Source: Dethiobacter sp.
GTDB lineage: Bacteria > Bacillota > Dethiobacteria > Dethiobacterales > Dethiobacteraceae
Length of the DNA: 35,046 bases
Assembly: GCA_020725465.1 (NCBI GenBank)
Contig: DYEY01000008.1
Coordinates: forward strand, 1 to 35,046
Direction of reading: 5' to 3'
The notes below the pieces were generated by a model that made no database searches, was not told the DNA's origin, and worked only from the letters and a program-made list of their open reading frames with translations. Shown in pieces: positions 2,699 to 26,372 of this stretch (its first letter is position 1; each line of letters begins with the position of its first letter). Made by a program: the position numbers and the translations under genes.

Positions 2699-2724
2699 AG
2701 AAAAAAAAACGTCTTAAGACGTTT
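2699..2724 (-). terminator. Intrinsic terminator of ytxC
   Basis: The stem AAACGTC / GACGTTT with loop TTAA overlaps the ytxC stop codon. On the minus strand it is followed by an uninterrupted U-run of about nine bases, the classic form of a rho-independent terminator. Confidence 0.85.
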
Positions 2725-3601
2725 AATGTTTCCCCTTCAGGTTTATGATACCGGTTGCTTCCTGGCAGATCTTACAGCGCCGGCACAGGCTGACCCTCTT
2801 TTCAAAGATATGTTTCAGCGTATCGGCAGCTTTGGGATATTGGCTCTGAACCTGCCGGTGCAGCACTATTTTCCGGGGGGCCACGGCAATAAGCGTATTG
2901 ATCAGAAAATCATCCCTGTCGCCGGTCAAATCGTCCCAGTCCGCGCTCTCTCCCTGCTCTTCAATATAATTATAGTCTTGGTCAAGCAAAACAAGGTTGC
3001 CCTGCCGGTCCAAAGCCACGTGCACCTGGTATACTTTCGGCTCCTGGAGCTGCACGAAGTATTTCAGCAGCCTGATGAATTCCTGGTACTCCTTTTCCAT
3101 CAAAAACTCATCCACTGCCTGGTCCAGGCACCGCCGCAGCGCAGCCTGCCATTTTTCCAGACGAAATACCAGCAAGCCGTGTATGTTCAGGTAATCCTGC
3201 CGGCCAAGATATTCTTCCAGCTGGGAAAGGACTTGGGTACGCAGGAACCCCTCCTTCCCCCGCTCCCTGTGCCAGATTTTTTCCGACAAATCAATGATTT
3301 CACAGCGCTCATGACGGGGGAAATAAAAATAATGCTGCTCCAGGATCTCACTCAGATACGGAAGTACAGAGCCCTCCATAATATAGTCAGCCAACACCTC
3401 AGCCAGGCGCCGCCGCAGGAGCGGGGCCGCCGGCGCTCCGTTTTTTCCCTGTATATCAACAGAAAGGTGCGGCCAGCCGTCCACTGTCTTTTCGGCAATG
3501 CTGACACCATAGCCTTCTTTATTAAAAAAAAACACGTTTTCTTCCAACCTTCTGCGCAACTCGGGAAAGGCATGCTTAACCGCGAAGACAAGCTGAGTCA
3601 A
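2723..3601 (-). CDS. ytxC: Sporulation protein YtxC family
   Basis: This roughly 292-residue protein resembles the YtxC family, found in endospore-forming Firmicutes and commonly located next to thrS, as it is here. Its biochemical role is unknown. The sequence is soluble and rich in aromatic and charged residues. Near the centre lies a helical stretch (SQLEEYLGRQDYLNIHGLLV) that resembles a family core. Near the C-terminus is a cluster of three cysteines (CRRCKIC). I place the start at TTG 3601 because AAGGGAG is 8 bases upstream. A GTG at 3610 would add three residues but would sit directly against the Shine-Dalgarno sequence. A CATATAAT box about 25 bases upstream is a possible -10 element. 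The gene ends inside its own terminator, so it is probably monocistronic. Confidence 0.8.
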   Translation of the reverse strand: MTQLVFAVKHAFPELRRRLEENVFFFNKEGYGVSIAEKTVDGWPHLSVDIQGKNGAPAAPLLRRRLAEVLADYIMEGSVLPYLSEILEQHYFYFPRHERCEIIDLSEKIWHRERGKEGFLRTQVLSQLEEYLGRQDYLNIHGLLVFRLEKWQAALRRCLDQAVDEFLMEKEYQEFIRLLKYFVQLQEPKVYQVHVALDRQGNLVLLDQDYNYIEEQGESADWDDLTGDRDDFLINTLIAVAPRKIVLHRQVQSQYPKAADTLKHIFEKRVSLCRRCKICQEATGIINLKGKH

Positions 3602-3690
3602 GTCTGTCACTCCCTTCTCTAGTATTATATGTCCTCCGGAAAAATTGTATACTTTTATCCATTATGTGGAGGACGTAATTGCCGGCACAA

Positions 3691-4154: not shown

Positions 4155-5396
4155 TTACGGGTACCTTTTATTTTTTTGCAGGGAACCGCAGGCGTCAAAC
4201 AGCATCTCCTCCGGGCCGGCCACCACTTCCACCCTGTCACCCGCCACCTCCAGCAGAGCGGGAGATATATACAGGTACTCAAGAGACAATGTATTTTTTA
4301 TCCTAGCCACTTTCAGCCGGTCAGGTTTTTTTTCTCTGACCGCCCGCAGCCCGAACATGAAAGCCTCCCGGTCCGTTTCCGCTATTACCGGTATTTTGGC
4401 CCGGTCCAGGCCGGTAGACAGGGCGTTTTCGTACATTGCCGGGTAATTTATCTTCTCAACCAGGCGGCGGGTGGTGACGTCGGCGATGCCGATGCCCAGC
4501 GCATTGCCCTCCGATTCAGCCGTCAGGTCAAGCACCACTATTTTATCGATGCAGGTGTATTCCTCCGTCACACCGGCCCGGTTGACCCTGCCCACAACCT
4601 TGGTATCCATGCCGGTGCCGCTAATGTTTTTGCCCATCTCCTCCACCACAAGCAGGTCCAGTTCCCCAAAAGGCAGCCTGGGTGTCAGTTTTTTGGCAAG
4701 ACTCAGGAGACCTTTTTCTTCTTCCTCCATATTGTCCGCAGCCAGCAGACGGAGAAAGCAGGTCTCCCCCCTCTGGTTCTCCACCACTGCCAGGCCGAAA
4801 ACCCGGGGAAGCTTACCAAGCATCACCCTGGCCACCGGCACCACCGCCTGTGCCAGGCCGGCGGCATGGACAGCGCGGCAGCCCACATCATTGCCAAGCC
4901 CAACGGCGGCCATTTTCAAAAGCCCGCTCTCGATCTCCCCGCTGAAACTGGTATGGGGCTTTACCCGGTTCACCAGTATTACACAGTCAGCTTTGGCCGC
5001 CAGGGCATCGCAGTACACCGGCAAACCCCCCTCCGTCTCCCCCAGCTGCACCACTGCCATCGCTGAGCGGACAGCTGCACCCACAGATTGGGCTGTTATA
5101 CCAAGCCTGGCCAGGACCGCCTCCTGCCCCGCCGCCGTAGCGCCGCCGTGGCTGCCCATGGCCGGGACAATAAAAGGTTCGCCTCCCCCGGCCCTGATCG
5201 CACCGACCAGCCCGGCCACCAGGTCTGCAATGCCGGCGATACCGCGGCTTCCCACGGCCACAGCCACCGACTCACCCGGCTTTATCCGCCCGGGAAGGTC
5301 AAAGGACATAACCTCCCTGTCCAGTTCGGCCCTGACATCCGCTATACTGTGCGCACTTGTCTTCTGCCTCACCAGGTACATGGGTGGAATCCGCAC
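4155..5396 (-). CDS. Lactate racemase-domain (LarA-like, DUF2088) protein
   Basis: This 413-residue protein belongs to the DUF2088 / LarA-like superfamily, whose founding member LarA is a nickel-pincer lactate racemase. The N-terminal half carries a glycine-rich nucleotide-binding-like segment (VAVAVGSRG, about 45-52), MGSHGGAT with H83, and KPHTSFSGEIESG with K146 and H148. K161 and H177 are 16 residues apart, the spacing of Lys184 and His200 in LarA. No larB, larC or larE (pincer cofactor synthesis) is in the window, and the MGSHGGAT motif differs from true LarA, so the substrate is unknown and need not be lactate. I chose GTG 5396 as start because AAGGGGG lies 9 bases upstream; a TTG at 5417 would add seven residues with no ribosome site. 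The gene is isolated and convergent with the DUF1540 gene. Confidence 0.75.
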   Translation of the reverse strand: MRIPPMYLVRQKTSAHSIADVRAELDREVMSFDLPGRIKPGESVAVAVGSRGIAGIADLVAGLVGAIRAGGGEPFIVPAMGSHGGATAAGQEAVLARLGITAQSVGAAVRSAMAVVQLGETEGGLPVYCDALAAKADCVILVNRVKPHTSFSGEIESGLLKMAAVGLGNDVGCRAVHAAGLAQAVVPVARVMLGKLPRVFGLAVVENQRGETCFLRLLAADNMEEEEKGLLSLAKKLTPRLPFGELDLLVVEEMGKNISGTGMDTKVVGRVNRAGVTEEYTCIDKIVVLDLTAESEGNALGIGIADVTTRRLVEKINYPAMYENALSTGLDRAKIPVIAETDREAFMFGLRAVREKKPDRLKVARIKNTLSLEYLYISPALLEVAGDRVEVVAGPEEMLFDACGSLQKNKRYP

Positions 5397-5521
5397 CTGA
5401 AGGCACCCCCTTGTCAAACGGCTCTGTATTTATTGTTTCGCCGGCTGGGCCGTCATTCCTGCACCGGGTGCCAGGGGTCTGCCCCCATTGTTCGGGCAGC
5501 TTCTCAGTGGTTACCAGACTT

Positions 5522-6510: not shown

Positions 6511-7785
6511 TTAAATAATCCTGGCTAAAGGCTGAAAATAATTACACGTCTGAAAAAGGGGGTTATTGCCAAAAATTTCAGGGAAAAGTTGGACACGTAT
6601 GGTCTGGCCGGCAGAAAAAGGTCCCCCTCCCGCCGGCAGAAAAATAAGCGAATTTGCTGTGCAAAGCGTGGATAGCACCCCAGGCTTTTGTTTAAGTGCC
6701 AGCTCAGCCACAAACCGGCCTTCCCGCCAGACGGTTCTGGCGGACAAAAAACGGTTTTGATTGCCGCACTTCTCCAGCGGCTTACCGGTAACAGCCTCAA
6801 CCCACTGATGCTGCCAGTTAACCAGACCGCTCATTATTTTTAGCGCCGGCAGTACAAACTGTAAAAAAGCTACCAGGCAGGCTGCTGGGTTACCGGAAAG
6901 GCCAAAGAACAGCTTTTCCCCGTAAAGGGCAGCCAGGAGTGGTGTTCCCGGTTTCATAGCCACACGGTGAAACAGGAGTTTTGTACCTGCCATGGCGGCG
7001 GCGGCAGGAATCAGGTCATGGTCGCCCACCGAGACGCCTCCCGTGGTCAACACTATGTCGGCTGATGCAAAAGCGCGAGTAATACCTGTAGCAAGCCGGT
7101 CCAGTTCGTCAGGCAGTCTTCCCTGATAAACAGGGGTGCCTCCCGCCAACCTGACCAGAGCCTCCAGTGTGTGCCGGTTGCTGTTATATATTTGTCCCGG
7201 GCCCAGCTTATTACCAACTTCTGCCAGTTCACTGCCTGAACTTAAAATCGCCACTACCGGTTTCCGGTAAACCGGCAGGGAAGTGAATCCCTGTGAAGCT
7301 GCTACTCCAAGTTCAGAAGGCCCAAGCAAACACCCCCGCCTGAGAAACATACGGCCTGCTTTTATATCCTCTCCTGCTTTTACTATGTTCTCACCCGGCC
7401 TGTATTCTCTTAAAACGTTTAATTTGTTTTTTCTTACACTGACATTTTCCTGGGCGGCAACCGCATCCGCACCGGCCGGAACCATGGCGCCGGTAAAAAT
7501 TCTTACGGCCTGCCCTCTTTGCAAAGCAGTCACAGAAGTTTCACCGGCTGGAATGGTGCCCACTATTTCAAGCTCCACCCCTTCCCCAACGCCGGCTGGC
7601 TTGGTATCACCCGCGTAAAAGGCATACCCGTCAAAAGGGGAGCGGTCAAAGGGAGGTTGTGCAAATTTTGAAACCAGGTCCCGGCTTAATACATAACCCA
7701 GTGCGCAATCCAGCGCTATTTCCCGGGAATCCAGGGGTTTTGCTGCTTCTCTTACCTTCCGTATCGCCTCATGATAATCAATCAT
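6511..7785 (-). CDS. moeA: Molybdopterin molybdenumtransferase MoeA
   Basis: This cytoplasmic enzyme inserts molybdate (or tungstate) into adenylylated molybdopterin in the last common step of cofactor synthesis. The 424-residue protein has the normal MoeA layout. Domain I/II contains the PPFDRSPFDGYAF motif (about 43-56), followed by the MoCF-type domain with SSGSEL, TTGGVSVGDHDL and GLSGNPAACLV. A domain IV-like C-terminal part follows, with a tail of about 20 extra residues rich in aromatics. The gene is the last of the operon headed by the arsenate-reductase-like gene, 12 bases after the MoeA-like gene, and ends at a strong bidirectional terminator. Its placement suggests cofactor supply for the adjacent Mo enzyme. 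Confidence 0.95.
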   Translation of the reverse strand: MIDYHEAIRKVREAAKPLDSREIALDCALGYVLSRDLVSKFAQPPFDRSPFDGYAFYAGDTKPAGVGEGVELEIVGTIPAGETSVTALQRGQAVRIFTGAMVPAGADAVAAQENVSVRKNKLNVLREYRPGENIVKAGEDIKAGRMFLRRGCLLGPSELGVAASQGFTSLPVYRKPVVAILSSGSELAEVGNKLGPGQIYNSNRHTLEALVRLAGGTPVYQGRLPDELDRLATGITRAFASADIVLTTGGVSVGDHDLIPAAAAMAGTKLLFHRVAMKPGTPLLAALYGEKLFFGLSGNPAACLVAFLQFVLPALKIMSGLVNWQHQWVEAVTGKPLEKCGNQNRFLSARTVWREGRFVAELALKQKPGVLSTLCTANSLIFLPAGGGPFSAGQTIRVQLFPEIFGNNPLFQTCNYFQPLARII

Positions 7786-7797
7786 AAGCAGTCACCG

Positions 7798-8820
7798 TCA
7801 GTTCTTGCCAAAACTGCAGTGGGGATAACGGCAGGGGTCACAGTTGTTGCAGAGCCCGCCTACTGCCATTTCGGTAAAATGATGCCTGGCGAGTTTTTCC
7901 GCTGTAAACAGCCGGGGCAGGATAAGGTCAAAAACAGTTATTTTGTTAAACATAACACAGCCGGGCAGGCCGATGACCGGAACATCCCCCAGGTATGCCA
8001 GCATCAGCATAGAGCCCGGCAGTACAGGTGTCCCGTAAGTAATAATTTCCGCACCGGTGGAACGTATAGCCGCGGGAGTACGGTCATCCGGGTCAACCGA
8101 CATTCCTCCCGTGATAAAAATCATCTGGGCGCCCAGGCGATAGAGGTCAAGTATGTTTCTGCAAATAGCCTCTTTGTCGTCCTGAACTATAACGTGCTTC
8201 ATTATACAGGACGGAAAGCCGCCAAGTTTCTGTAAAACAACGGGGCCGAATCGGTCCTCGATTCTGCGGTGAAACACCTCATTGCCCGTGGTTATAATCC
8301 CCACCCTGTGATGCATATAGGGCACTACCTGCAAAGACGGGGCAGCCGCGGCAGCGATGTTTTCAGCGGCAATAATCTTTGCCTTGTCTATAACCAGGGG
8401 GATGACGCGGGCGCCCGCCACTTTTTCGCCTTTCCGTACCGGAGTATTGCCGTGAATCGTGGCCACCGACACCTCTCCAAGGTAGTTCACTGCGTAGACT
8501 GTTTCTTTTTTTACTTTGAACAATCCGTCGACGGCGGCGTAAATATTTACTTTTCCCTCCGACGGTTCGACAAACGATAAATTGCTTCCACACAAAGCCG
8601 ATGCCAGACGGACTGCCGCCTCATCCTCATGGAGCTCACCGGCATTTACCTCCATAATGAAAACGTGCTCTTTACCTATATTTAACATCTCAGGCAAATC
8701 GTCACTGCTGATGATATGGCCTCTTTTAAAAGCCCTGCCTTTATACTGTCCCGGTACAATTTTGGTCAGGTCATGGCCCAGGACCATACCCACAGCCTCT
8801 TCGACTCTCACTGCCTTCAT
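7798..8820 (-). CDS. MoeA-like molybdopterin-binding protein with Cys-rich tail
   Basis: This 340-residue protein has a MoCF_biosynth-type molybdopterin-binding domain in its C-terminal half (about 165-320). It shows ITTGNEVF, FITGGMSVDPDDRTP and GLPGCVMFNK, corresponding to the SGD/E, GGxS and GLPGNP motifs of MoeA; in the last one the usual asparagine is a cysteine. The N-terminal half is not a canonical MoeA domain I/II. The C-terminus ends in C324-x2-C327-x2-C330-x4-C335, a possible Fe-S or zinc site. Such proteins often accompany molybdenum oxidoreductase genes and may bind or transfer the cofactor; the exact role is unproven. The start has AGGGGTGAT 7-8 bases upstream. It is the penultimate gene of the arr-like operon. 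Confidence 0.85.
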   Translation of the reverse strand: MKAVRVEEAVGMVLGHDLTKIVPGQYKGRAFKRGHIISSDDLPEMLNIGKEHVFIMEVNAGELHEDEAAVRLASALCGSNLSFVEPSEGKVNIYAAVDGLFKVKKETVYAVNYLGEVSVATIHGNTPVRKGEKVAGARVIPLVIDKAKIIAAENIAAAAAPSLQVVPYMHHRVGIITTGNEVFHRRIEDRFGPVVLQKLGGFPSCIMKHVIVQDDKEAICRNILDLYRLGAQMIFITGGMSVDPDDRTPAAIRSTGAEIITYGTPVLPGSMLMLAYLGDVPVIGLPGCVMFNKITVFDLILPRLFTAEKLARHHFTEMAVGGLCNNCDPCRYPHCSFGKN

Positions 8821-8892: not shown

Positions 8893-9957
8893 TTATATTT
8901 TAAGCAGAGACTTTTTCAGTTCTTCTCTTTTTGCGCACTGCGTGCAGAGTTCATTGCCTGCCATGACGTTTCGGCTGTGACATTTTCTGCAGTCAGACAG
9001 CACGAAAACCTTCGCAACCAAAGTAGTCCCGGTGCCGCAGCCCGCTGTCCTGTCTCCTTTTTCTTTTGCCCCCACAGCACATAGCCGGGCACAGAGGCCG
9101 CATTCTGTACAGCGCCAGGGACGGAAAAGCAGCAGGGCTTTTCCGTCCTGGCCGGCTGTCATCTCCCAGGCTGCCTGCGGGCAGACTGCCTGACAAAAAC
9201 CACACCCTCTGCATTGCTCCCCCACTTCCCATGCCGGCAGCCGGTAATGTGCCGCGGAGCCGGCCACCCCCCGCCCGGATATGACTCTTTCCAGCAACCG
9301 GCGGTAGGGGTTAACTTTATCATCATTTTTCAGGCGCAGCAGACTTCTGCTCATCTCCCGCGCCAAAACTGTTGTCTCCCGGCGCAAAAAGCCAAATATT
9401 TCCCGCCGTGATATTGAATGCTGAAAATGTTGTTTCTCCAAACGCAGGTGTACACTTTCCCGGTATTGTTTTTCTCCCAGGAACAGCCTTAGCTTTTCCA
9501 GCGAGCAAAGAAGACGCCAAACTCCCTTTTTTCTTGTGCATTCCGGACAGGAAGAAAGATCCAGTTCCACCGGTTGGTATTTTCTTAAAATCACTATTGC
9601 CGCAAAAAACTCCCACGGCTGCCCCGCCAGGCAGAAGACCCTGACGTTAACCGCGCCGGCTCCGTATTCGCAGCCGACCACGCAGGCTTTTCCCGGCATT
9701 ACTGTTTCAGGTATGTGCCCGGGAAATGACGACGGAATAAGGCATCTCGCCGGACAAGCGGCCGCACAGATGCCGCACCCGTCACACCTGGTGCCGTCGA
9801 CGCGTACTGCTTCCAGCCCGGAAATGGCCCTGTTAGGGCAGACAAACCGGCAGACCTGGCACTGTACCTGCTGCTGCCTCTGGTTAATGCACCGGCCGGA
9901 CAGTAACTCCGGTGACCGGTCTGCAGTCAGCTTATTTAAAATATATTTTGCTAGCAA
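8893..9957 (-). CDS. Polyferredoxin-like 4Fe-4S protein of the arr operon
   Basis: This 354-residue protein has no signal peptide or membrane segment, so it is probably cytoplasmic. Near the N-terminus are CQVCRFVCP and CDGCGICAAACP, a ferredoxin-like pair. The middle has CVVGC and CPEC. Further on are CRGCGFCQAVCP and CTECGLCARLC, a second pair. The C-terminus has CRKCH and CTQC, 13 residues apart, resembling a zinc ribbon. It therefore could carry up to four [4Fe-4S] clusters. The start is TTG, overlapping the chaperone stop codon (TTGCTAG), which implies translational coupling. Similar proteins occur with TorD chaperones in molybdenum-enzyme operons. It may help load cofactor or clusters, or pass electrons, but no function is established. 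Confidence 0.82.
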   Translation of the reverse strand: MLAKYILNKLTADRSPELLSGRCINQRQQQVQCQVCRFVCPNRAISGLEAVRVDGTRCDGCGICAAACPARCLIPSSFPGHIPETVMPGKACVVGCEYGAGAVNVRVFCLAGQPWEFFAAIVILRKYQPVELDLSSCPECTRKKGVWRLLCSLEKLRLFLGEKQYRESVHLRLEKQHFQHSISRREIFGFLRRETTVLAREMSRSLLRLKNDDKVNPYRRLLERVISGRGVAGSAAHYRLPAWEVGEQCRGCGFCQAVCPQAAWEMTAGQDGKALLLFRPWRCTECGLCARLCAVGAKEKGDRTAGCGTGTTLVAKVFVLSDCRKCHSRNVMAGNELCTQCAKREELKKSLLKI

Positions 9958-10589
9958 GCGACCGCCCCGCGCTGCCGGCTCATTGTATCCGCTACAGAGG
10001 CCAGGATGGCGGACAGAAGGGCGTAATACGGGAGAGAGGCGCTGTTTTTAACCGCCAAAGCAAATGATGACAACCACAGCCCGGCATGCTCCCTGATAAA
10101 GCCGTCCCGCAGCCCGCGTAACCTTTCCGCCTCAACTAAATCTTCCCGTTCAAGTGCATCGTTTTCCGCTTCATACAGCTTGGACAGAAAGTCTGTTTCC
10201 AGCACCACATGATCGGGGGCGTCTTTGAATTCGGCACTGACTTCCAGGCCCGCCAGCCGGTAATATCTCTTAACATCCATGGTACAGTCGCCCATAACGC
10301 GGTTTTCCCGGTAACAAGACTCGTACGGCGGCGCAGGTAACGAAAAAGGCCCGACAAACAACCTGCTGTGCTCCAGGCGCAAAGCGTGCAGCCGGTCGTT
10401 TTCTGTTAGCCATTGTTCCAGCTCCCTGATTTGCCCTTCAAAGCCAAGAGCGAACCGATCGTTTATTTCCCGCAGGCAACAGGTTATCCATGGGCCCGCC
10501 ACATCTTTTTCCGGGCGATAGAAAGCTTTGGAAAAAAGGGCAAACATATCCCTGTACCAGGTAACATCGTTCGTTTGGTTTTTGTCCAT
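9951..10589 (-). CDS. arrD: TorD/DmsD-family chaperone (ArrD-like)
   Basis: This 212-residue, all-helical, cytoplasmic protein is of the TorD/DmsD/NarJ type. Such chaperones bind the Tat signal and apo-form of a molybdopterin enzyme until the cofactor is inserted. The family hallmark is visible in the centre: LEHSRLFVGP followed by APPYESCY. The ATG at 10589 has AGAGGT 7-8 bases upstream; an upstream in-frame ATG (10661) would add 24 unlike residues and is rejected. The gene directly follows the ArrB-like subunit and overlaps the next gene by 7 bases. Since the catalytic subunit is the only Tat substrate in the operon, it is the obvious client. The symbol follows the name arrD used for chaperones in some arr operons. 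Confidence 0.85.
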   Translation of the reverse strand: MDKNQTNDVTWYRDMFALFSKAFYRPEKDVAGPWITCCLREINDRFALGFEGQIRELEQWLTENDRLHALRLEHSRLFVGPFSLPAPPYESCYRENRVMGDCTMDVKRYYRLAGLEVSAEFKDAPDHVVLETDFLSKLYEAENDALEREDLVEAERLRGLRDGFIREHAGLWLSSFALAVKNSASLPYYALLSAILASVADTMSRQRGAVAC

Positions 10590-10665
10590 GGCAATTACCT
10601 CTTTTTTATTAATCGCAAAGAAGGATGATGTTGGGGGATGCCGGGACATGGGCATCCCCACCTCT

Positions 10666-11370
10666 TTAGCTCGGGTTATATTTTCGGATGTAGTAAACCC
10701 TTGGTTCTGTCCCGGTTTCTTCTTTCAGGCGGAAACTGCTGTGACTGCGCAAAAGCTTTGAAACTTCGCTGTCTGAATCGTCGAGGTCACCAAAAAACCG
10801 TGCTTTGGAGGGACAGACCGTATTGCAGTAGGTATCAACCCCTCTGGCAATACGGTGGTCGCACATGGTGCACTTTTCAACCACGTTTTTCGGGCGGATA
10901 CCTTTGTAGGTGGCTTCCCTGTCCCTGTTGTAATACGGCAATACCGTACCGCCAACTCTCTCGGCCACTTCTTTGGGAGTCGCAGTTCCACCACTGATCA
11001 GTGCGGTATCATCCCTCCAGAACCGGTGCGGTTCTTCCTCATTGTAGCTGATTACGCCATAAGGACAGGCCTTTTCACAGAGACGGCAGCCTATGCAGCG
11101 CTCTGTACTGTGAAGGGTCAGGCCGTTATCCGCTTTATACATGGCCTTGGGGTTCACAGGGCATACTTCCACGCAGGGAGCATTGACACAGTGATTGCAG
11201 AGCGTCGGCACATATGTGTACCTGACATCCGGAAAATGCCCCACAGTTTCATGGACGAAATGGGCCCAAAATATACCTTCCGGCGTATTGTTCTCTATTT
11301 TGCAACCGATGACACAGGCACCGCAGCCGGTGCATCTGTGCAGGTCGATTACCATCGCGTAATTTGGCAA
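10666..11370 (-). CDS. arrB: Arsenate reductase iron-sulfur subunit ArrB-like
   Basis: This 234-residue protein is a DmsB/PhsB/NrfC-type electron-transfer subunit with four [4Fe-4S] cluster motifs: C13-x2-C-x2-C-x3-C, CNHCVNAPCVEVC, CIGCRLCEKAC and CTMC with CNTVC. It would pass electrons to the Mo-containing partner encoded 25 bases upstream, and it lacks its own signal peptide, as expected if it is exported in complex with ArrA. I place the start at TTG 11370, 6 bases after GGGGGTG; a GTG at 11379 is possible but has poorer spacing. The family is shared by many Mo enzymes, so the name ArrB rests on the ArrA identification. No NrfD/DmsC-like membrane subunit follows, which is the usual third partner in many related enzymes. 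Confidence 0.88.
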   Translation of the reverse strand: MPNYAMVIDLHRCTGCGACVIGCKIENNTPEGIFWAHFVHETVGHFPDVRYTYVPTLCNHCVNAPCVEVCPVNPKAMYKADNGLTLHSTERCIGCRLCEKACPYGVISYNEEEPHRFWRDDTALISGGTATPKEVAERVGGTVLPYYNRDREATYKGIRPKNVVEKCTMCDHRIARGVDTYCNTVCPSKARFFGDLDDSDSEVSKLLRSHSSFRLKEETGTEPRVYYIRKYNPS

Positions 11371-11395
11371 CGAAAACACCCCCAGTTAAATAGTT

Positions 11396-13954
11396 TTAGG
11401 CTTTTTCCACCCGGACCCGGGTCACAGCGTAGAAAGCGGTACTTCCGCTCAGGCGCTCGTAGTCGGCCGGCAATACATCATTGTTATTGCCGCCGCGGGC
11501 TTCACGCTTTTTAAAATCTTTGGCGGCTACCCGACCGTATGCCCAGTGTCCCTGTCCGAATGTTTTCCCCACAGTGCCCGGAGGCGTACCCTCCCACAGC
11601 TTGGCGGTACAAACCAGGGAACCGACAGGTGATACCAGCCTGATCCTGTCACCGTTACGGACACCAAGCAGTGCCGCATCCCGGGGGTTGATTCTGGCTA
11701 CATCGTCCCATTTTTCATCGCCGGGGTCCGCGTCTTTCAGGTCGTAATACCAGGGGGCGTTGGCGGAACGGCCTTCCCGGTTGAACCTGGATTTGTGGTC
11801 AACCATAACCAGTGGATATTCACTTTCATTGCCCCAGATGTAAGGCTCCTCATAGTGAGGGATAAACGCTTTTTCTCCCCGGGCCTGGTATTTACAGGTT
11901 GCCAGGATATCGTCAACGGTGGTTTTATGTTTCTCCGCATGGGCTGTCAGGGCGTTTTTCAGTGTCTCGCTGTAAAACTCAAACTGCTTGGTGGCGGTGC
12001 CGAAGTTGCCCCACAGTTTTTTGAAGGGATACTCTCCGGAATTCCAGACGCCTTTGGTTTTAAAATCTTCCCAGCCGCTGAATTTGTCGCCGGCTTTGTA
12101 TTCGGCCGGATCCCACATGGGCCGTGTGCGCACCTTGGTGCAGAAAAGGGCAAATTCTTTCTCATTGGCGGCTGATGCTCCGCTCTCCGGATCCTTCACC
12201 GCGTCGCAGAAATCCTTGAGATTGGTAAAACCCCGCTCGGCCAGTTTTTGTGCCAAAAGCCACACCATTTCCGTCTCCGGATCTTTGCAGTCCCAAACCG
12301 GGTCAATAACCGGCTGATTTAGCCAGGCGTGGGTGTAAGTGTTGCCCTTTTGGGACATATAGCCCCATTGCTCGAACATGTGGTGCGTGGAAGGCAGCAC
12401 TATGTCTGCAAATATGCTCATCTCCGAAGCGTGTGTAACAGCGTGGACAAAGAAAGGGATTTTGGCCATCGCTTCATCCCAGCGGGAAGCCTCCGGGCAG
12501 GAGAAATTAAAATTGTTCCAATAGCCAAAAGCCACTTTTATGTCATAAGGGTCTTCGGCCAGGATGGCATCGGCAACACGGTTGGTCACCACACCTCCCC
12601 CGGAGCGGCCGGCATTGAGCGCAGGAAATTCTTTATAGCCGCGCTGGTCAATTTTTTGCTTCCTGACACCGTCTTTGGCCAGCTCATTCATAAAATCGTC
12701 AGGAGCCGGCACATTGCCGGACGGGACACTGGCGCCGCGTATGGAGCCACCCACGTTATCCACCGAGCCGACCAACCCGTTTAAGGCCTGGATAGCCATA
12801 CTGGAGTAACCGCCCCGAACCTGCATATTGGGGCCGCCCCCCTGCCAGACAATGGCGTGAGTGCCAAGCTCGCCCAGTCGTTTGGCTACGTTTATGATTT
12901 TTTCCGCGCTGATTCCAGTCTTTTCGGCAGCCCACTGGGGCGTCCGGTCTTTAACTTCCAGGTTCCACCATTTTACCAGGCCAAAAGTGTATGTTTCCTC
13001 AAAATCTTCTTCCTTCACTGTTTTACCGGCCACAAAGCGGTTTTTACCGTCTTTGAAATCACCTGCAAATTCACGGGACCAGAGGCCTTCAGTCAGAATC
13101 ACGTGAGCCATGGCCAGAGCCAGCGCGCCATCTTCGCCCGGTTTCACAGGCAACCAGGCATGTGACTTAGAGGCCGAAGCCGACAGGCGAGGATCGATTG
13201 TAACCACATACGCCCTTTCCAGGAGGTCTCCCCACGCTTTCAGGTAGTAGGATACCTGGCGGTTGGAGGAAATGGGATCAACGCCCCACAGCACAACCAT
13301 TTTGGTATTGTCCAGGTCATAGTCACGGTAATTCCAGTACCCCTCCGTATAATACGGTCCGAACTTTTCCGCCTCGGCACAAATTGAACTGTGCGAGATA
13401 TTGTTCGGAGAGCCCATAATTTTGGGAAAGCGGTCATAAAGGACCTGGTTATTCTGAGTATAACGACCGCGCATCACCATAAACTTATGTGGCTCTGCAT
13501 TTTTCTGCAGCTCTATCAGTTTGTCGGCAAATATTCCCATTGCCTCATCCCAGGAAATAGGTACAAAGCCCGGATCTTCATAGCGTCCCTTTTTGGGGTT
13601 CGTGCGTTTCATAGGCACTTTGATCCGGTCTGGGTCGTAAACCTGCTGCAATCCAAGATGTTCACGTGGGCAACCGCTGTCCCCGTGCACTTTGGAAAGT
13701 GCATTAGGTCTGATTTTAACCGCCCTTCCGTCTTTAACCAAAACTTCCTTGGCACACCATGAAGTACACCCCTCGCAACCCGTAGGCAGCCAGGTTCCCT
13801 CTTCCAGACTGTACTGCGGCGCGGGTGGCGGCTCCTCTTCCGCTCTTTTTTGGCCGCAACCGGCGCTTACCATAGCCAGTGCTCCGGTGGCACCGGCTAT
13901 TTTTAGAAAAGTCCTGCGTTTGATTTTACTGCCCAGAATCTCCTGTAAACTCAT
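11396..13954 (-). CDS. arrA: Respiratory arsenate reductase catalytic subunit ArrA-like
   Basis: This is an 852-residue molybdopterin oxidoreductase of the DMSO-reductase superfamily. The N-terminus has a twin-arginine signal (KRRTFLK, 12-18), a hydrophobic stretch and VSAGC ending at C33, a lipobox. A [4Fe-4S] motif C60-x2-C63-x3-C67-x27-C95 follows. GRYT (R164, Y165), SSICAEAEKFGPYYTEG (C192 as Mo ligand, K197) and Y209 correspond with a one-residue offset to residues R165, Y166, C193, K198 and Y210 that I recall from Shewanella ArrA. The blocks YYTEGYWNYRD and KWWNLEVKDRT match regions used for arrA degenerate primers. This argues for ArrA over PsrA/PhsA or TtrA. Expected role: reduction of arsenate to arsenite outside the membrane in respiration. 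The start ATG has GGAGGT 7 bases upstream. The gene leads the operon arrA-arrB-arrD-polyferredoxin-moeA-like-moeA. An ArxA-type (arsenite-oxidising) direction is not excluded. Confidence 0.87.
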   Translation of the reverse strand: MSLQEILGSKIKRRTFLKIAGATGALAMVSAGCGQKRAEEEPPPAPQYSLEEGTWLPTGCEGCTSWCAKEVLVKDGRAVKIRPNALSKVHGDSGCPREHLGLQQVYDPDRIKVPMKRTNPKKGRYEDPGFVPISWDEAMGIFADKLIELQKNAEPHKFMVMRGRYTQNNQVLYDRFPKIMGSPNNISHSSICAEAEKFGPYYTEGYWNYRDYDLDNTKMVVLWGVDPISSNRQVSYYLKAWGDLLERAYVVTIDPRLSASASKSHAWLPVKPGEDGALALAMAHVILTEGLWSREFAGDFKDGKNRFVAGKTVKEEDFEETYTFGLVKWWNLEVKDRTPQWAAEKTGISAEKIINVAKRLGELGTHAIVWQGGGPNMQVRGGYSSMAIQALNGLVGSVDNVGGSIRGASVPSGNVPAPDDFMNELAKDGVRKQKIDQRGYKEFPALNAGRSGGGVVTNRVADAILAEDPYDIKVAFGYWNNFNFSCPEASRWDEAMAKIPFFVHAVTHASEMSIFADIVLPSTHHMFEQWGYMSQKGNTYTHAWLNQPVIDPVWDCKDPETEMVWLLAQKLAERGFTNLKDFCDAVKDPESGASAANEKEFALFCTKVRTRPMWDPAEYKAGDKFSGWEDFKTKGVWNSGEYPFKKLWGNFGTATKQFEFYSETLKNALTAHAEKHKTTVDDILATCKYQARGEKAFIPHYEEPYIWGNESEYPLVMVDHKSRFNREGRSANAPWYYDLKDADPGDEKWDDVARINPRDAALLGVRNGDRIRLVSPVGSLVCTAKLWEGTPPGTVGKTFGQGHWAYGRVAAKDFKKREARGGNNNDVLPADYERLSGSTAFYAVTRVRVEKA

Positions 13955-14260
13955 TACCGCACCTCCGGTTAAAAATTATAAACGACAAAGCTGCATTAAT
14001 AAGTACCGACTCTCCCCCCTCTGTCTAAGAAAAGCTTGTGCGCATGTTCACAAAAAGTGAGAACATTCTGCCAAAATAATTATTTCATAGCCATGCAACT
14101 TGCAACACAGCAATTCTCCCTTAAACATATAGGGGTAATATACCTATTTAATATTGATTTCGGTTTAGGGTAAAGCCCTGATACAAGCAAGATAAAAAGC
14201 TTCACGCTTCATGGAGTAATATAATTTTCCTGTGCAACAAAAAAAAAGGCCTGACGGCCT
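13955..14260. promoter_or_regulatory. Upstream control region of the arr-like operon
   Basis: This region between the response-regulator terminator and arrA has no gene. On the minus strand a TATAAT (13975-13980) lies about 20 bases before the arrA start, with no good -35 box, as expected of an activator-dependent promoter. Further upstream are three inverted repeats: ATGTTC / GAACAT (14044-14066), GGTAATATACC with TACYYMT-like NarL heptamer halves (14129-14147), and AGGG / CCCT (14167-14179). These are candidate sites for the adjacent NarL-type regulator, but this is inference. Confidence 0.5.
14239..14260 (-). terminator. Intrinsic terminator of the regulator operon
   Basis: The stem GGCC / GGCC, extended by flanking A-T pairing (AGGCC / GGCCT), has a 4-base loop. 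On the minus strand it is followed by a U-run of about nine bases, directly after the response-regulator stop codon. Confidence 0.85.
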
Positions 14261-14920
14261 CTATTCTTCAAGCAAACCTTCTTTCATGGCAAAGCGGACA
14301 AGTTCGGAGCGTTTATGAATGTTAAGTTTGTCTTTAATATTGCCTCTGTGGGCTTCCACTGTTTTGACACTTATAACCAGGGTATCGGCAACCTGCCTGT
14401 TGGTATATCCCAGTGCAACCAAACGCAGCACCTCACGCTCACGCGCCGTCAAGTCAACAGCAGGAGATTTTTCGGTTTTACCTCTGGCACCGTACAGCTT
14501 ATCCAGCACTTTCCGGGTCAGTGCCGGGTCAACCACTATTTCCCCCCGGCTGACATTGCGAATTGCCGAAAGCAGCTCCACATCCGCCACTTTTTTTAAA
14601 ACATACCCGCTGCCGCCAAGGCGCATCACTTCGGAAAAATATGCTTCATTGTCGTGCATCGTCAAAACCAGCACTTTGACATCGGGACAGCAGGATTTCA
14701 ACTCTGACAGCACCTGTAAACCTGTTTCACCCGGCAGCGTAATATCCAGGAGGACAACATCCGGCCGGTGCTGTTTGCACAAGTCAACAGCCTCCCTGCC
14801 TTCACCGGTGTCCCCCAGTACTTTCATATCATCCTGCGAGTCGATAATCAGCCGCAGGCCGTCCCGTAAAACCGCATGGTCGTCAACAAGCAACACTCCA
14901 ATTTTTTTAGTTTTTGTCAT
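14261..14920 (-). CDS. NarL/FixJ-family response regulator (ArrR-like)
   Basis: This 219-residue transcription factor has an N-terminal receiver domain with the acidic pair D13-D14, phospho-acceptor D59 (VVLLDITLPGE), a conserved TMHD threonine region and the lysine of YVLKK. A C-terminal LuxR-type helix-turn-helix (about 150-215) follows, with LTAREREVLRLVALGYTNRQ and the recognition helix around VKTVEAHRGNI. It overlaps the sensor-kinase gene by 14 bases and has AGGAGG upstream of its ATG, so the two are translationally coupled. The position between the sensor genes and the arr-like operon makes that operon the most likely target. The closest functional analogy is to the regulators of arsenic-sensing three-component systems, although AioR and ArxR are usually of the NtrC type, which is a real difference. 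Confidence 0.93.
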   Translation of the reverse strand: MTKTKKIGVLLVDDHAVLRDGLRLIIDSQDDMKVLGDTGEGREAVDLCKQHRPDVVLLDITLPGETGLQVLSELKSCCPDVKVLVLTMHDNEAYFSEVMRLGGSGYVLKKVADVELLSAIRNVSRGEIVVDPALTRKVLDKLYGARGKTEKSPAVDLTAREREVLRLVALGYTNRQVADTLVISVKTVEAHRGNIKDKLNIHKRSELVRFAMKEGLLEE

Positions 14921-16352
14921 TTTGGGAGCCTCCTGTCACAGGAATGTGCAGATAAACAGTGGTCCCTGCACCGTGTTCGGATTCTATCTCCAGTGTGCCT
15001 CCCACCAGCATCGCTCTCTCCTTCATACCGAAAAGGCCAAGCCCTCTGCCGCCACTCCCGGCGACTGCTTCAGGGTCGAACCCGATACCGTCGTCTTCCA
15101 CTATGGCTGTGAGAATTCCGTCTCCGTAGCGGACCACCACGCTGATATTCTCGGCCTGGGTGTGCCTCATGACGTTTGTCAGCGCCTCCTGCACTATCCG
15201 GTAAACCGTGGTCTCCACGTACGAAGGAAACCGGTGATTTTGCAGGCCATGCAGGTGAAAGTCAATGTTCTTGTTCAGTATGGCTGAACATCTTTCAATA
15301 TGGTTGGCCAGGCTGACTTCCAGACCCATGTCATCCAGCACGCTGGGTCGCAGGTCACGGGCAAGGGCCGACACGTCTTCCATTGCCTTGCTGACCATTT
15401 GCCTAAGCAGCCCGGCCATCTTTTTTGCCTGGCCCAGGTCTTGGGTATCCTCTATAACTTTAAGTAACAGCTTTATTGAGGTCAGTGACTGCGCCGTTTC
15501 ATCATGTAATTCTCTTGCTATGCGCTTGCGTTCATCTTCCTGTGCGGTAATAAGTTTATTAACAAGCCGGATACGCAATTCCTCTTTGGCGAGGCTCTCG
15601 TTCCTGTATTCCTGCAGCTTGTCTGCCATAAAGTTAAATGCTTCCGCCAGCTGCCCCAGTTCATCTTTGCCCCACAGCACCGCTCGGATGCTTAAATCAC
15701 CGGCGGCCACAGCCCTGGTACCGCGAATCAGCTCTTGTACAGGCGCAAGCACAAGGTTGGCGAAAAAAAATGAAGCAGGAATGCCCAACATTAAAATTAT
15801 CACCATGTAAAAAATCAGTGATCTTACCATATCATTTACAATCCGGTTCAGGCTCTCTTCGCCCAGACCCAGGCGTACCGTACCCGCCCTGCCGTCAAAA
15901 ACGGGAACTGCGATGTCGTGAATAAGCCCTGATTCTGTGTAAAAGGTTGACAGGCAGTAACGTTCTTCTCCTGAAACGGCATTTAAATCCCTCAGCCCGG
16001 GCGGCACGCCGCCTGCTCCAAAAGAATCCACAAGCACATTGCCCTGGGTATCCTGAATAAAAAGATATACCACGTCTTCGTTATTTGTTATCGTATCCTG
16101 TATCAGTCGGTGCAGCTCATATAAATTGTTGATAAAAATGGGGTCAATACTCCTCGCTGCCACATCACGGGCAATGGCGATACCCCTTGCCTCTAACTGC
16201 TCCTGGAGTACCCTCGTCTGGGTGGTATATATATGCCAAACATTCCAGCTTCCCAGCAATATAACCATCAACACAAAAGTACCTGTTATCTTTCTGCGCA
16301 AGCCGATACCACTTTTTAACCAACATAAAAACATAAGCGCCGCCTGCTTCAT
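14907..16352 (-). CDS. HisKA_3-type membrane sensor histidine kinase (ArrS-like)
   Basis: This 481-residue kinase of the NarX/DegS type has a first membrane segment (about 21-42), an extracytoplasmic sensor domain (about 43-175), a second membrane segment (about 176-200) and a HAMP domain (about 197-250). The HisKA_3 dimerisation domain carries phospho-acceptor H283 (RIARELHDETAQS), and the HATPase domain has DDGIGFD and GRGLGLFGMKERA. The sensor part contains one cysteine (C133), with no obvious known fold. AGGTGA precedes the ATG. The gene lies 12 bases after the PhnD-like binding protein gene and overlaps the regulator gene, so all three form one operon. I infer that the kinase reads the ligand state of the binding protein, as in AioX-AioS systems. 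Confidence 0.92.
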   Translation of the reverse strand: MKQAALMFLCWLKSGIGLRRKITGTFVLMVILLGSWNVWHIYTTQTRVLQEQLEARGIAIARDVAARSIDPIFINNLYELHRLIQDTITNNEDVVYLFIQDTQGNVLVDSFGAGGVPPGLRDLNAVSGEERYCLSTFYTESGLIHDIAVPVFDGRAGTVRLGLGEESLNRIVNDMVRSLIFYMVIILMLGIPASFFFANLVLAPVQELIRGTRAVAAGDLSIRAVLWGKDELGQLAEAFNFMADKLQEYRNESLAKEELRIRLVNKLITAQEDERKRIARELHDETAQSLTSIKLLLKVIEDTQDLGQAKKMAGLLRQMVSKAMEDVSALARDLRPSVLDDMGLEVSLANHIERCSAILNKNIDFHLHGLQNHRFPSYVETTVYRIVQEALTNVMRHTQAENISVVVRYGDGILTAIVEDDGIGFDPEAVAGSGGRGLGLFGMKERAMLVGGTLEIESEHGAGTTVYLHIPVTGGSQNDKN

Positions 16353-16364
16353 TTTTATGACAGA

Positions 16365-17276
16365 TCACCTTAACAGGGATTGGGCAATTTCACGTATACT
16401 GTCATAAGCGGATTTGTCCTGCGGCATGAAGCGGTCAAATTTAAGGTGAGCCAATATTTGGCTACCATACTCATCCTCATGCAGAGTCAGAAAAAAGTCA
16501 CGTAAAAATTCTTTAAGGGACGGGTCAAGTCCGGGCCGCACCACAACCGGCTGAATACCAAAGGGTGGCGACTTGTGAATGATTAGCAAATCCTCGAACA
16601 GTTCAGGCTCACGGTCAGCCATATAATAAAAAACCAGGCTGTCGACCGCAGCGCCGTCCACCAACCGCTCTATCACTGACCGGACGGAGTTATCGTGGCC
16701 GTAGGTAAAGATATGGCGGCTAAAGAAAGATTCCGGCGTTAGGCCAGACTCATGTAAAAGATAGAGCGGGTAAAGCCTTCCCGAGTTGGAAATGGGGTCA
16801 GTAAAAGCAAATCTCTTGCCGCGCAATTCCAAAAAATTGGTAATGCCGCTGTCACTGCGGACAATAATGTAAGAGTGATACGTCATTTCACCGTTGATCA
16901 CCGGTGCCACCAGCAGTTCCATCCCGAACTCCTGCTCACCCAAAACATACGAATAAGTGCAGATAAAAGCCAGGTCGACAGCGCCGGCACGGACCAGGTC
17001 GTTCACTTCCGCGTATGTTTTGCGCTGTACCAGCTGGATCGGCCTTTGTAAGCGCTGCCCCAGAAATTTCAGCAGTTCATCATAATAAATAATGTTTTCA
17101 CGTGCCGACGTAATAGAAGCAACAGCCACGCGCAGCGGTTCTTCTTCCTGCACCGGTGCCTGAATCTGGTTTCCATCATGTTTAAGAGAAATAAAAGGTG
17201 CTTTTCGCCCTGTCCTGCAACCGGGTACTGCCAGCAAAATCAGCATACAAAGCACAAAAAACCATTTTTTTTTCAT
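16365..17276 (-). CDS. PhnD-like substrate-binding lipoprotein (ArrX/AioX-like sensor)
   Basis: This 303-residue exported protein is of the PhnD / phosphate-phosphonate-type solute-binding family (PF12974-like). A signal peptide ends in AVPGC, so C20 is probably lipidated. The mature domain begins at PLRVAVASI (about 47) and has the family block AGAVDLAFICTYSYVLG (about 97-113), with cysteine C106 where many relatives have a non-cysteine residue. AioX, the arsenite sensor of arsenite oxidisers, belongs to this family and uses a conserved cysteine for arsenite. No ABC permease or ATPase genes adjoin it. Instead it heads an operon with a sensor kinase and response regulator, so a sensory role is much more likely than transport. 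A good promoter lies upstream. The alternative ligand would be phosphate or another oxyanion. Confidence 0.85.
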   Translation of the reverse strand: MKKKWFFVLCMLILLAVPGCRTGRKAPFISLKHDGNQIQAPVQEEEPLRVAVASITSARENIIYYDELLKFLGQRLQRPIQLVQRKTYAEVNDLVRAGAVDLAFICTYSYVLGEQEFGMELLVAPVINGEMTYHSYIIVRSDSGITNFLELRGKRFAFTDPISNSGRLYPLYLLHESGLTPESFFSRHIFTYGHDNSVRSVIERLVDGAAVDSLVFYYMADREPELFEDLLIIHKSPPFGIQPVVVRPGLDPSLKEFLRDFFLTLHEDEYGSQILAHLKFDRFMPQDKSAYDSIREIAQSLLR

Positions 17277-24232: not shown

Positions 24233-24496
24233 CTACCCTCCTGACAGCATGGGTAAAATACTCAGCTCCACATCTATATTCGTCCTGTATTCCGGCCACT
24301 GTGATGCCGGAACACCGTTTCCGTTAACCAATACCAGCCACGAGCCTTCTGAAAAAATCAGCCCACGTTTACCGGAAATTACATTTAGGATATCACGGAC
24401 GGTTACGCGTCCTTCCAACTCCAACTGTTCTTCTCGGACACCACTGTAAACTGAGGACATCCCCACATATCGAACTGTTACCGTGGTTTTAATCAA
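24233..24496 (-). CDS. MoaD/ThiS-family sulfur-carrier protein linked to AOR
   Basis: This protein of about 87 residues has a beta-grasp fold pattern: KTTVTVRYVG, RVTVRDILNVISGKRG, WLVLVNG and a terminal IDVELSILPMLSGG. The C-terminal diglycine is the hallmark of ubiquitin-like sulfur carriers. MoaD supplies sulfur for the dithiolene of molybdopterin. I place the start at TTG 24496, overlapping the aldehyde oxidoreductase stop, because it restores the first beta strand; the longer frame to 24610 lies inside the upstream gene. Fusion or adjacency of MoaD-like proteins to tungsten aldehyde oxidoreductases is recurrent, so this is likely a dedicated carrier. No moaE partner is in the window. Confidence 0.82.
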   Translation of the reverse strand: MIKTTVTVRYVGMSSVYSGVREEQLELEGRVTVRDILNVISGKRGLIFSEGSWLVLVNGNGVPASQWPEYRTNIDVELSILPMLSGG

Positions 24497-26306
24497 TGGT
24501 TTCCCCAAGTAAATCTGACAGGTTTTTTTGCGGTTTTCCATCCATATCCCAGCCGCGGGCCCTGTAGTACTCATCCAGCATACGATCGTATAACTCACGG
24601 GTAAGAACACGGCCCTGGGCCGGCCCTTCCGGCAGGGGCTCAGTCATTATTCTCTGAGGCAGGTAATCATTTTTCCTGGTAATACCCTCACGCTCCAGAA
24701 TCAACCGTTCCAGGTTGTAAACACGTTCACCGATTTCCATTAGATGGGGGGTAAAGTCTACTCCCGTTACCATTTCCAGCACATTTCCGGTGGGCACATC
24801 GGTGAATCCCATTGAAGAACGCACAACTGTGCATATACCCAGACAATCTATATATCCCCTGGTATCCTGGATGTTTTTTACCAGGATGCCTTTGCCCTCG
24901 ACAGCAAAACGGTCATACTTGCCAGATAGCAGTTCATCGCGAATTGTCCATCCCCCCACATTATGACAGGCACCACGACTGGATGTGCCGTAAGAAAGAC
25001 CGATTCCAAAAAAACCCCGTGGCTCATACGCCGCAAACGGCATTCCTTTGGCATGCATCATAAAGTATTCGGTATCAGGGTATTTTTGCTGCAGGTAAAG
25101 GAATCCTTTTGCCAGCTCCGCCCCAAAGCCTTCCATTTCACCCATCTTTCTTACCATAGCCACCATTGCCTCCCCGTTACCGAAGGGAAGCTTCATACCA
25201 AGAAGATCTTCTGTAAACAGGCCTCTTTCATAACACTCCATGGCGTAAGCGATAATTGTACCGCAAGACATGGTATCAAGTCCGTATTCATCGCACAGCT
25301 GGTTTGCCCTAATTATGGCGCCAAAATCAGAAACTCCGCACTGGCCTCCGAAAGCACCAATGGTCTCATACTCAGGGTCACTCTTGGCTCCTCTAAACAA
25401 ACCTTCCGGAACTTCGCAAAGTTGGGCACAGGCAACGGGACAGCGGTAACAGGCCGCATTTTTGATCTTATAGTGCTGCACCATGTGAGAGGCGGAAATA
25501 GTTTCAACTTCGTCAAAAACACCGGTCTGGAAGTTATAACTGGGGTAGCACCCCAGTTCACTCATTACATCGGTGTACTGCGCCGTTCCAAACCTGGTAT
25601 GGCTTTTCTTGCTCTCCCTGGCGGATTTGATAGCCAGGGAAGCAAAATCTGCCAGTTGCTCCGGTTGAGCTACAGGAATGCTGCCCGTACCGTAGGCTGC
25701 CACAGCCTTAATATTTTTCGAAGCCATAACCAAGCCGCCTCCGCCGCGGCCGAAACTACGGTCACCTACCATAATGCAACTGATATTTGCACCTTTAACT
25801 GCGGCGGGGCCCGCTGTCATAACTGCCGCCTTTTTCTCACCAAATTGAGAGCGTACTTTTTCCCCAGCAACAAAATTTGTATCCAGCCAGTATTCCGAGG
25901 CCGAAACAAGTTCAACCTGGCCATCACGTATAAAAATGCTTGTGGGGCGTTTTGCCCTGCCTTCCAGTATCAAACCGTCAAAACCGCAAAATTTCAGATG
26001 AGGGCCCAGATTACCTCCGGAATTGGAACAGAGATACCTGCCCGTTTCAGGCGATTTCGTTGCCATCTGAAACTTAGTTGTTGAAGGAAGCTTTAACCCG
26101 GTTAACGGGCCGGTAAAAAAGAACAACTTGTTATCAGCGGAAGTGGGGTTTACATCAGCTCCGATTTCCCGATAATAGTAGTACGCCGCAACTCCCCGAC
26201 CACCTAAAAGCTTTCGGTAAACCACTGGCGGAACCTGTTCCCGGGTGACTTTTGAGTTGGTAAGGTCAATTCTCAATAAAATCCCTGTGTAACCGCCCTG
26301 GTACAT
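24489..26306 (-). CDS. aor: Aldehyde:ferredoxin oxidoreductase (tungsten-type AOR)
   Basis: This 605-residue enzyme of the AOR family (domains N, 2 and 3) oxidises aldehydes to carboxylates with ferredoxin as acceptor, using tungsten-bispterin and one [4Fe-4S] cluster. It has the N-terminal GGRGVAAYYY block, GDRSFGRGGGGLVMASKN, and the cluster ligands C286-x2-C289-x3-C293, with the distal C492 in DCLGIC, at spacings matching the Pyrococcus enzyme. The start ATG at 26306 follows AGGAGG at 9 bases; the longer frame to 26357 is rejected. It overlaps the MoaD-like gene. It is cytoplasmic. The aldehyde is not known; the aldolase in the operon would give an aldehyde as one product. Confidence 0.92.
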   Translation of the reverse strand: MYQGGYTGILLRIDLTNSKVTREQVPPVVYRKLLGGRGVAAYYYYREIGADVNPTSADNKLFFFTGPLTGLKLPSTTKFQMATKSPETGRYLCSNSGGNLGPHLKFCGFDGLILEGRAKRPTSIFIRDGQVELVSASEYWLDTNFVAGEKVRSQFGEKKAAVMTAGPAAVKGANISCIMVGDRSFGRGGGGLVMASKNIKAVAAYGTGSIPVAQPEQLADFASLAIKSARESKKSHTRFGTAQYTDVMSELGCYPSYNFQTGVFDEVETISASHMVQHYKIKNAACYRCPVACAQLCEVPEGLFRGAKSDPEYETIGAFGGQCGVSDFGAIIRANQLCDEYGLDTMSCGTIIAYAMECYERGLFTEDLLGMKLPFGNGEAMVAMVRKMGEMEGFGAELAKGFLYLQQKYPDTEYFMMHAKGMPFAAYEPRGFFGIGLSYGTSSRGACHNVGGWTIRDELLSGKYDRFAVEGKGILVKNIQDTRGYIDCLGICTVVRSSMGFTDVPTGNVLEMVTGVDFTPHLMEIGERVYNLERLILEREGITRKNDYLPQRIMTEPLPEGPAQGRVLTRELYDRMLDEYYRARGWDMDGKPQKNLSDLLGETID

Positions 26307-26372
26307 AAGTGGCATCCTCCTATGGTCTTTGATTTTCCACACAAAATCATTACACAATCCTTTTCCTGGCTG

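Follow-up and report, generated by a model that had tools for sequence, protein, structure and literature searches.

The genes of an arr locus on a 35,046-nucleotide stretch of DNA from Dethiobacter sp. (contig DYEY01000008.1; the whole stretch is called the window here) very probably encode an ArrAB respiratory arsenate reductase that is controlled by ArrX, ArrS and ArrR, exported by the Tat system, probably anchored through a lipid on Cys33, and active in the reduction of arsenate. The enzyme family, the motifs, the operon, the relationship of the sensor and the absence of PF03916 NrfD from the genome come directly from computation. The catalytic subunit gene starts with an ATG preceded by GGAGG and carries the following features:

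11396..13954, minus strand: arrA, molybdopterin catalytic subunit of respiratory arsenate reductase, 852 aa (homology, tree, motifs, model)
13856..13924, minus strand: Tat signal K12-R13-R14-T-F-L-K, then lipobox V29-S-A-G-C33 in ArrA (sequence inspection, PF10518)
13670..13777, minus strand: [4Fe-4S] cysteines C60, C63, C67 and C95 (alignment)
13460..13471, minus strand: RGRY motif R162-Y165, diagnostic of ArrA versus ArxA (alignment; criterion from PMC6549141)
13328..13381, minus strand: Mo-site segment with Cys192, Glu194, Lys197 and Tyr209 (alignment)

Among all solved structures, the best match of the 852-aa protein is ArrA of Shewanella ANA-3 (6CZ7; 1046 bits, E = 0, 55% identity over about the full length), and the next family, the Thermus polysulphide/thiosulphate reductase, follows far lower (136 bits, E = 1e-38). 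An earlier note on this DNA had proposed ArrA and named a phylogenetic tree as a test that could refute it; in our careful tree the protein falls inside a 14-row ArrA clade with Shewanella, Marinobacter and Bacillaceae ArrA (support 100/100). Two ArxA encoded on plasmids stand outside this clade, as do the PhsA/PsrA-like proteins, and a 67-row tree agrees with this placement (SH-aLRT = 100). The NCBIfam ArrA model NF041714 gives 1183 bits, which is below its curated cut-off of 1600. We set this aside because, in the calibration, ArrA of Salisediminibacterium (the genus of B. selenitireducens) also stays below the cut-off at 1065 bits, with Shewanella ArrA at 1746 and two ArxA at 431-438 bits; none of the Bacillota genomes searched with the model reaches 1600. 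The cut-off marks a Shewanella-like subgroup and is not treated here as defining ArrA. Judged from its sequence, the protein is a genuine member of the ArrA clade and belongs to a well-known enzyme family.

A polysulphide, thiosulphate or tetrathionate reductase would have the fold and the Fe-S/Mo architecture in common with ArrA, but is hardly credible as the identity of this protein: the PhsA and TtrA models score 234 and 61 bits against 1183 for ArrA, identity to the PhsA-like paralogues in its own genome is 27-28%, and both trees contradict it. The PsrA/PhsA/TtrA assignment was accordingly rejected on tree, scores and motif, which bears out the distinction from these three reductases drawn in the earlier note. 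That the protein is an anaerobic arsenite oxidase of the ArxA type, or an ArrA working in reverse, is very improbable too. ArxA is the sister enzyme of ArrA, and their operons resemble each other, with an XSR module in both; however, tree position and scores are against ArxA, and so is the motif, since (R/K)GRY in ArrA and XGRGWG in ArxA are described as telling the families apart (PMC6549141) and both ArxA compared have YGRGWG where our protein has RGRY. Neither arxB2 nor arxC occurs at the locus, and its ArrR is of the LuxR/FixJ type rather than an AAA+ ArxR. The ArxA assignment was also rejected.

The active-site description given before our analysis proved accurate. The motif C-x2-C-x3-C-x27-C is present as C60-x2-C63-x3-C67-x27-C95, the Mo-ligand cysteine is Cys192 inside SSICAEAEKF, and the one-residue offset is exact, R164, Y165, C192, K197 and Y209 corresponding to R165, Y166, C193, K198 and Y210 of a full-length 854-aa Shewanella ArrA. 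Both the YYTEGYW and the KWWNLEVKDRT blocks occur in the sequence, and the five residues are invariant in an alignment of 25 diverse ArrA sequences. A predicted model of ArrA (mean pLDDT 82) matches 6CZ7 with a TM of 0.92, against 0.68 for the next family; it adds nothing on the fine geometry of the Mo site because the loops there (residues 190-192 and 204-209) have low confidence.

Related molybdoenzymes were also seen at other loci. A MopB protein with 41% identity to the query, RGRY and a lipobox is encoded in L138 (1565-3976; genome G132) and in L117; it has CDEG in place of CAEA at the Mo site, branches near the ArrA/ArxA split, adjoins arrB, arrD, arrR and arrS genes, and may be an early-branching arsenic enzyme. 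A second molybdoenzyme, PhsA-like, with a Tat signal and lipobox and with its own Fe-S subunit and TatC, is found on contig 3 of genome G000 (L124, 16306-18642), about 5 kb from an ACR3 arsenite pump; the genome holds no NrfD for this enzyme either. On the Raoultella planticola plasmid p6_SCLZS62 (L151, 5001-6189), a C-terminal arrA fragment (57% identity) lies beside a 4Fe-4S subunit gene, with insertion elements and an arsR/permease pair as neighbours, and a similar match occurs on a Citrobacter freundii plasmid; apparently an arr operon has decayed on these enterobacterial plasmids.

An arrX-arrS-arrR module precedes arrA in the same direction:

16365..17276, minus strand: arrX, predicted arsenate-sensing periplasmic-binding protein (best solved match ArrX 6x6b, pocket residues)
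14907..16352, minus strand: arrS, sensor histidine kinase with sCache, HAMP and HisKA_3 (domain profiles)
14261..14920, minus strand: arrR, LuxR/FixJ-type response regulator (profiles, synteny)
14245..14262, minus strand: intrinsic-terminator-like hairpin and T run after arrR, parting arrXSR from arrA (sequence); such sites are no commoner in the region than chance
14165..14181, minus strand: candidate ArrR-binding palindrome TCAGGGCTTTACCCTAA, 211 bp before the arrA start (motif scan)

The best solved match of ArrX is Chrysiogenes ArrX (6x6b, E = 4e-61), with AioX next (E = 3e-38). All seven oxyanion-pocket residues of the AioX subfamily are kept (Y88, C106, Y133, S163, S165, H194 and D212), including the pocket cysteine that is missing in PhnD (PMC5908839). 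Moreover, no site in the window other than TCAGGGCTTTACCCTAA fits TCAGGG-N5-CCCTGA with at most one mismatch (0.07 expected), and a very similar palindrome has been published before Chrysiogenes arrA. A box scoring at least 10/12 is found at seven of ten loci with a linked arrR and at none of nine without (p = 0.003; moving one borderline locus gives 0.013); these 19 loci are nearly all from Bacillota, and the counts are support, not proof, because the consensus was fixed after some loci had been seen. A second palindrome before arrA, GTTCTCACTTTTTGTGAAC, is common to no relative and was dropped. The linked ArrX-type sensor and the candidate ArrR site independently point to arsenate.

It is improbable that the main substrate is a sulphur compound or a different oxyanion (antimonate, selenate or selenite). 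A role in antimonate reduction has been connected with enzymes of the ArrA type (PMC13284237), and specificity is not fixed by sequence alone; however, the protein groups within the ArrA clade, its Mo-site residues are conserved, and it is linked to a sensor whose Chrysiogenes counterpart has an affinity of about 1 uM for arsenate and a 150-fold lower one for phosphate, with no binding of selenate or antimonite (PMC5908839). A review, moreover, knows no other physiological function for ArxA/ArrA (PMC10100899).

Downstream of arrA, the following genes are read in the same direction:

10666..11379, minus strand: arrB, iron-sulphur electron-transfer subunit, 237 aa (NF041715 and synteny)
9951..10661, minus strand: arrD, TorD/NarJ-type chaperone, 236 aa as called (PF02613, E = 6e-28)
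8893..9957, minus strand: cysteine-rich polyferredoxin, no signal peptide seen (profiles, synteny beside arrABD in Bacillota)
7798..8820, minus strand: MoeA-like protein with the MoCF_biosynth domain only, recurrent in arr loci (profiles, synteny)
6511..7785, minus strand: moeA, molybdopterin molybdotransferase (profiles)

For the adjacent four-cluster ArrB the best match is NF041715 (339 bits, E = 1e-101, below the 450-bit cut-off), and the order arrA-arrB-arrD-polyferredoxin is kept in related Bacillota. The polyferredoxin has two ferredoxin-like modules and a C-terminal CxxC pair, and is linked to arrABD across Bacillota (here and in L127-L137, L085 and L066). The MoeA-like protein occurs beside arr genes in distant phyla (here and in L042, L100, L128, L130 and L135), including arr loci of the Desulfobacterota type, and its recurrence suggests a cofactor step specific to Arr.

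No NrfD-type ArrC (PF03916) is found in the operon or anywhere in the genome, which is 98% complete. Nor was NrfD found in six further genomes whose ArrA falls in the subclade of the query; one of these six is a single contig, and some of the genomes compared are fragmented. Six other arrA-bearing Bacillota have NrfD in the genome, adjacent to arrA in five. ArrC is known to be optional, as many Arr lack it (PMC2500031). The ArrA N-terminus scores 22.5 bits with PF10518, just under the cut-off of 22.7, and the lipobox follows the Tat signal. Among 64 classified ArrA loci, a lipobox is present in 12 of the 32 without adjacent NrfD and in none of the 32 with it (Fisher p = 1.4e-4); the Bacillota subset gives 8/11 and 0/8, respectively (p = 0.003). 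On the tree the lipobox was gained or lost at least five times, and a test of independent pairs agrees in direction only (0 versus 1-3 pairs, p = 0.25-1), so that kinship may account for the association, given that only one to three independent pairs are informative. Three genomes of the NrfD-free group (G185, G110 and G511) have neither NrfD nor lipobox. A lipobox after the Tat signal was also seen in several Shewanella ArrA (L078, L080, L082 and L089), unlike the ANA-3-like ArrA. The missing ArrC, together with an apparent lipid-anchor signal on ArrA, is the one feature that makes this locus unusual, and an ArrC-less ArrA held by a lipid is a plausible anchoring variant. It could explain how a membrane-derived Arr has A and B subunits only, as in B. 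selenitireducens, from whose membranes a two-subunit enzyme was purified (PMC2500031). No report of a lipoprotein ArrA was found in the literature searched, subscription journals lying largely outside that search.

As to electron supply, the NapC/NrfH-like matches of this genome lie in multihaem cytochromes that carry 12 or 17 haem motifs, which makes a CymA-like electron donor possible. NapC-type cytochromes were not found in six other subclade genomes, and we rejected the Shewanella-type CymA route as a clade-wide answer for this reason. No dedicated quinol-oxidising subunit is linked to the arr locus. Menaquinone synthesis is partly supported: two MenA-like prenyltransferases score below their cut-offs, and PF02621 of the futalosine pathway was not found in the genome. 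A multihaem cytochrome cluster on contig 70 of G000 (L150, 5945-14135; 12, 17, 12 and 6 CxxCH motifs) may serve extracellular electron transfer.

A rival reading is that the enzyme is an ArrA-clade arsenate reductase that acts as an electron sink or in detoxification and, for want of a link to the quinone pool, does not serve energy-conserving respiration. The lack of an NrfD anchor in seven related genomes, the lack of a NapC/NrfH-type cytochrome in six of the seven, and a menaquinone pathway that is only partly supported speak for it. We nevertheless consider it unlikely, since Arr typically comes with Tat export and an arsenate-sensing XSR module, many ArrC-less Arr support respiration (for instance in Shewanella via CymA; PMC2500031), and NapC/NrfH-like multihaem cytochromes do exist in this genome. 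A wider proposal can be offered tentatively, as something we would not yet call probable: that a Bacillota lineage, and separately several other lineages, dropped NrfD/ArrC from Arr and made it a Tat-exported lipoprotein, with at least six genomes that also lack a NapC/CymA-type cytochrome and would use an electron route not yet described for Arr.

For respiratory arsenate reduction we infer substrate, promoter control, lipid anchor and electron donor as follows. Extracellular arsenate would bind ArrX, and the signal would pass via ArrS and ArrR, which may turn on arrABD and the accessory genes from the palindromic site. In the cytoplasm, the TorD-type chaperone and the MoeA-like proteins would assist the maturation of ArrA and ArrB, and the folded pair would be exported by Tat and retained at the outer face of the membrane, probably via the lipid on Cys33 of ArrA instead of ArrC. 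A NapC/NrfH-like multihaem cytochrome could donate electrons, which ArrB would pass to the Mo-bisPGD site for the reduction of arsenate to arsenite, and arsenite entering the cell would be exported by the ACR3 pump. The genome encodes TatC, this pump and an ArsE-like thioredoxin elsewhere.

Within the class, arrA is found in 4 of the 98 genomes searched, the window genome included, and within its own GTDB family in 1 of 20, the window genome alone; this sparse distribution suggests horizontal gain or frequent loss. The claim of a spore-forming host draws weak support within the window from a YtxC-like sporulation protein (2723-3610, E = 8e-48), which is below its curated cut-off. A probable spore-former lineage is thereby added to the organisms that turn arsenate into the more mobile arsenite, and its arrA would escape surveys that depend on the Shewanella-tuned cut-off. 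Elsewhere in the window are an aldehyde ferredoxin oxidoreductase (24489-26357), whose neighbours are genes for a sugar kinase, KDPG aldolase and sugar transport, and a nickel-pincer-cofactor-dependent (LarA-like) isomerase of group 22 (4155-5417).

Compared with known systems, the locus resembles ArrAB of Shewanella sp. ANA-3 in its two-subunit catalytic unit, motifs and Mo-site residues. It differs in having arrXSR, the polyferredoxin and the MoeA-like genes, as well as a lipobox that is missing in L073, the closest ANA-3 relative; Shewanella, for its part, relies on CymA (PMC2500031), and at the locus of Shewanella hafniensis no linked arrXSR is seen. The Bacillaceae Arr of Salisediminibacterium and Salipaludibacillus, relatives of B. 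selenitireducens MLS10, have the same Bacillota ArrA-ArrB-ArrD, and the Salipaludibacillus locus also has the polyferredoxin; their identity is 52-54%, their loci include an NrfD-type ArrC, and a lipobox is missing. The ArxA of Cereibacter azotoformans and Sulfuricella denitrificans belong to the sister family and share the Tat signal and the XSR module, but they carry XGRGWG, are about 32-38% identical over the matched parts, and have linked NrfD, a second 4Fe-4S protein and an ArxR of the AAA+ AtoC type. ArrA of the Syntrophomonadaceae MAG CSSed10_9 (L038) and of G049 are alike in sequence (68-69% identity), lipobox, lack of NrfD and arrABD-polyferredoxin order, whereas no linked arrXSR was seen in the DNA available for them. 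The likeness to arrXSR-arrAB of Chrysiogenes arsenatis, whose enzyme is reported to be soluble (PMC2500031), rests on the regulators and the palindrome: its ArrX is the best solved match of ours, with the pocket complete, ArrR is FixJ-like, and a matching palindrome lies before arrA.
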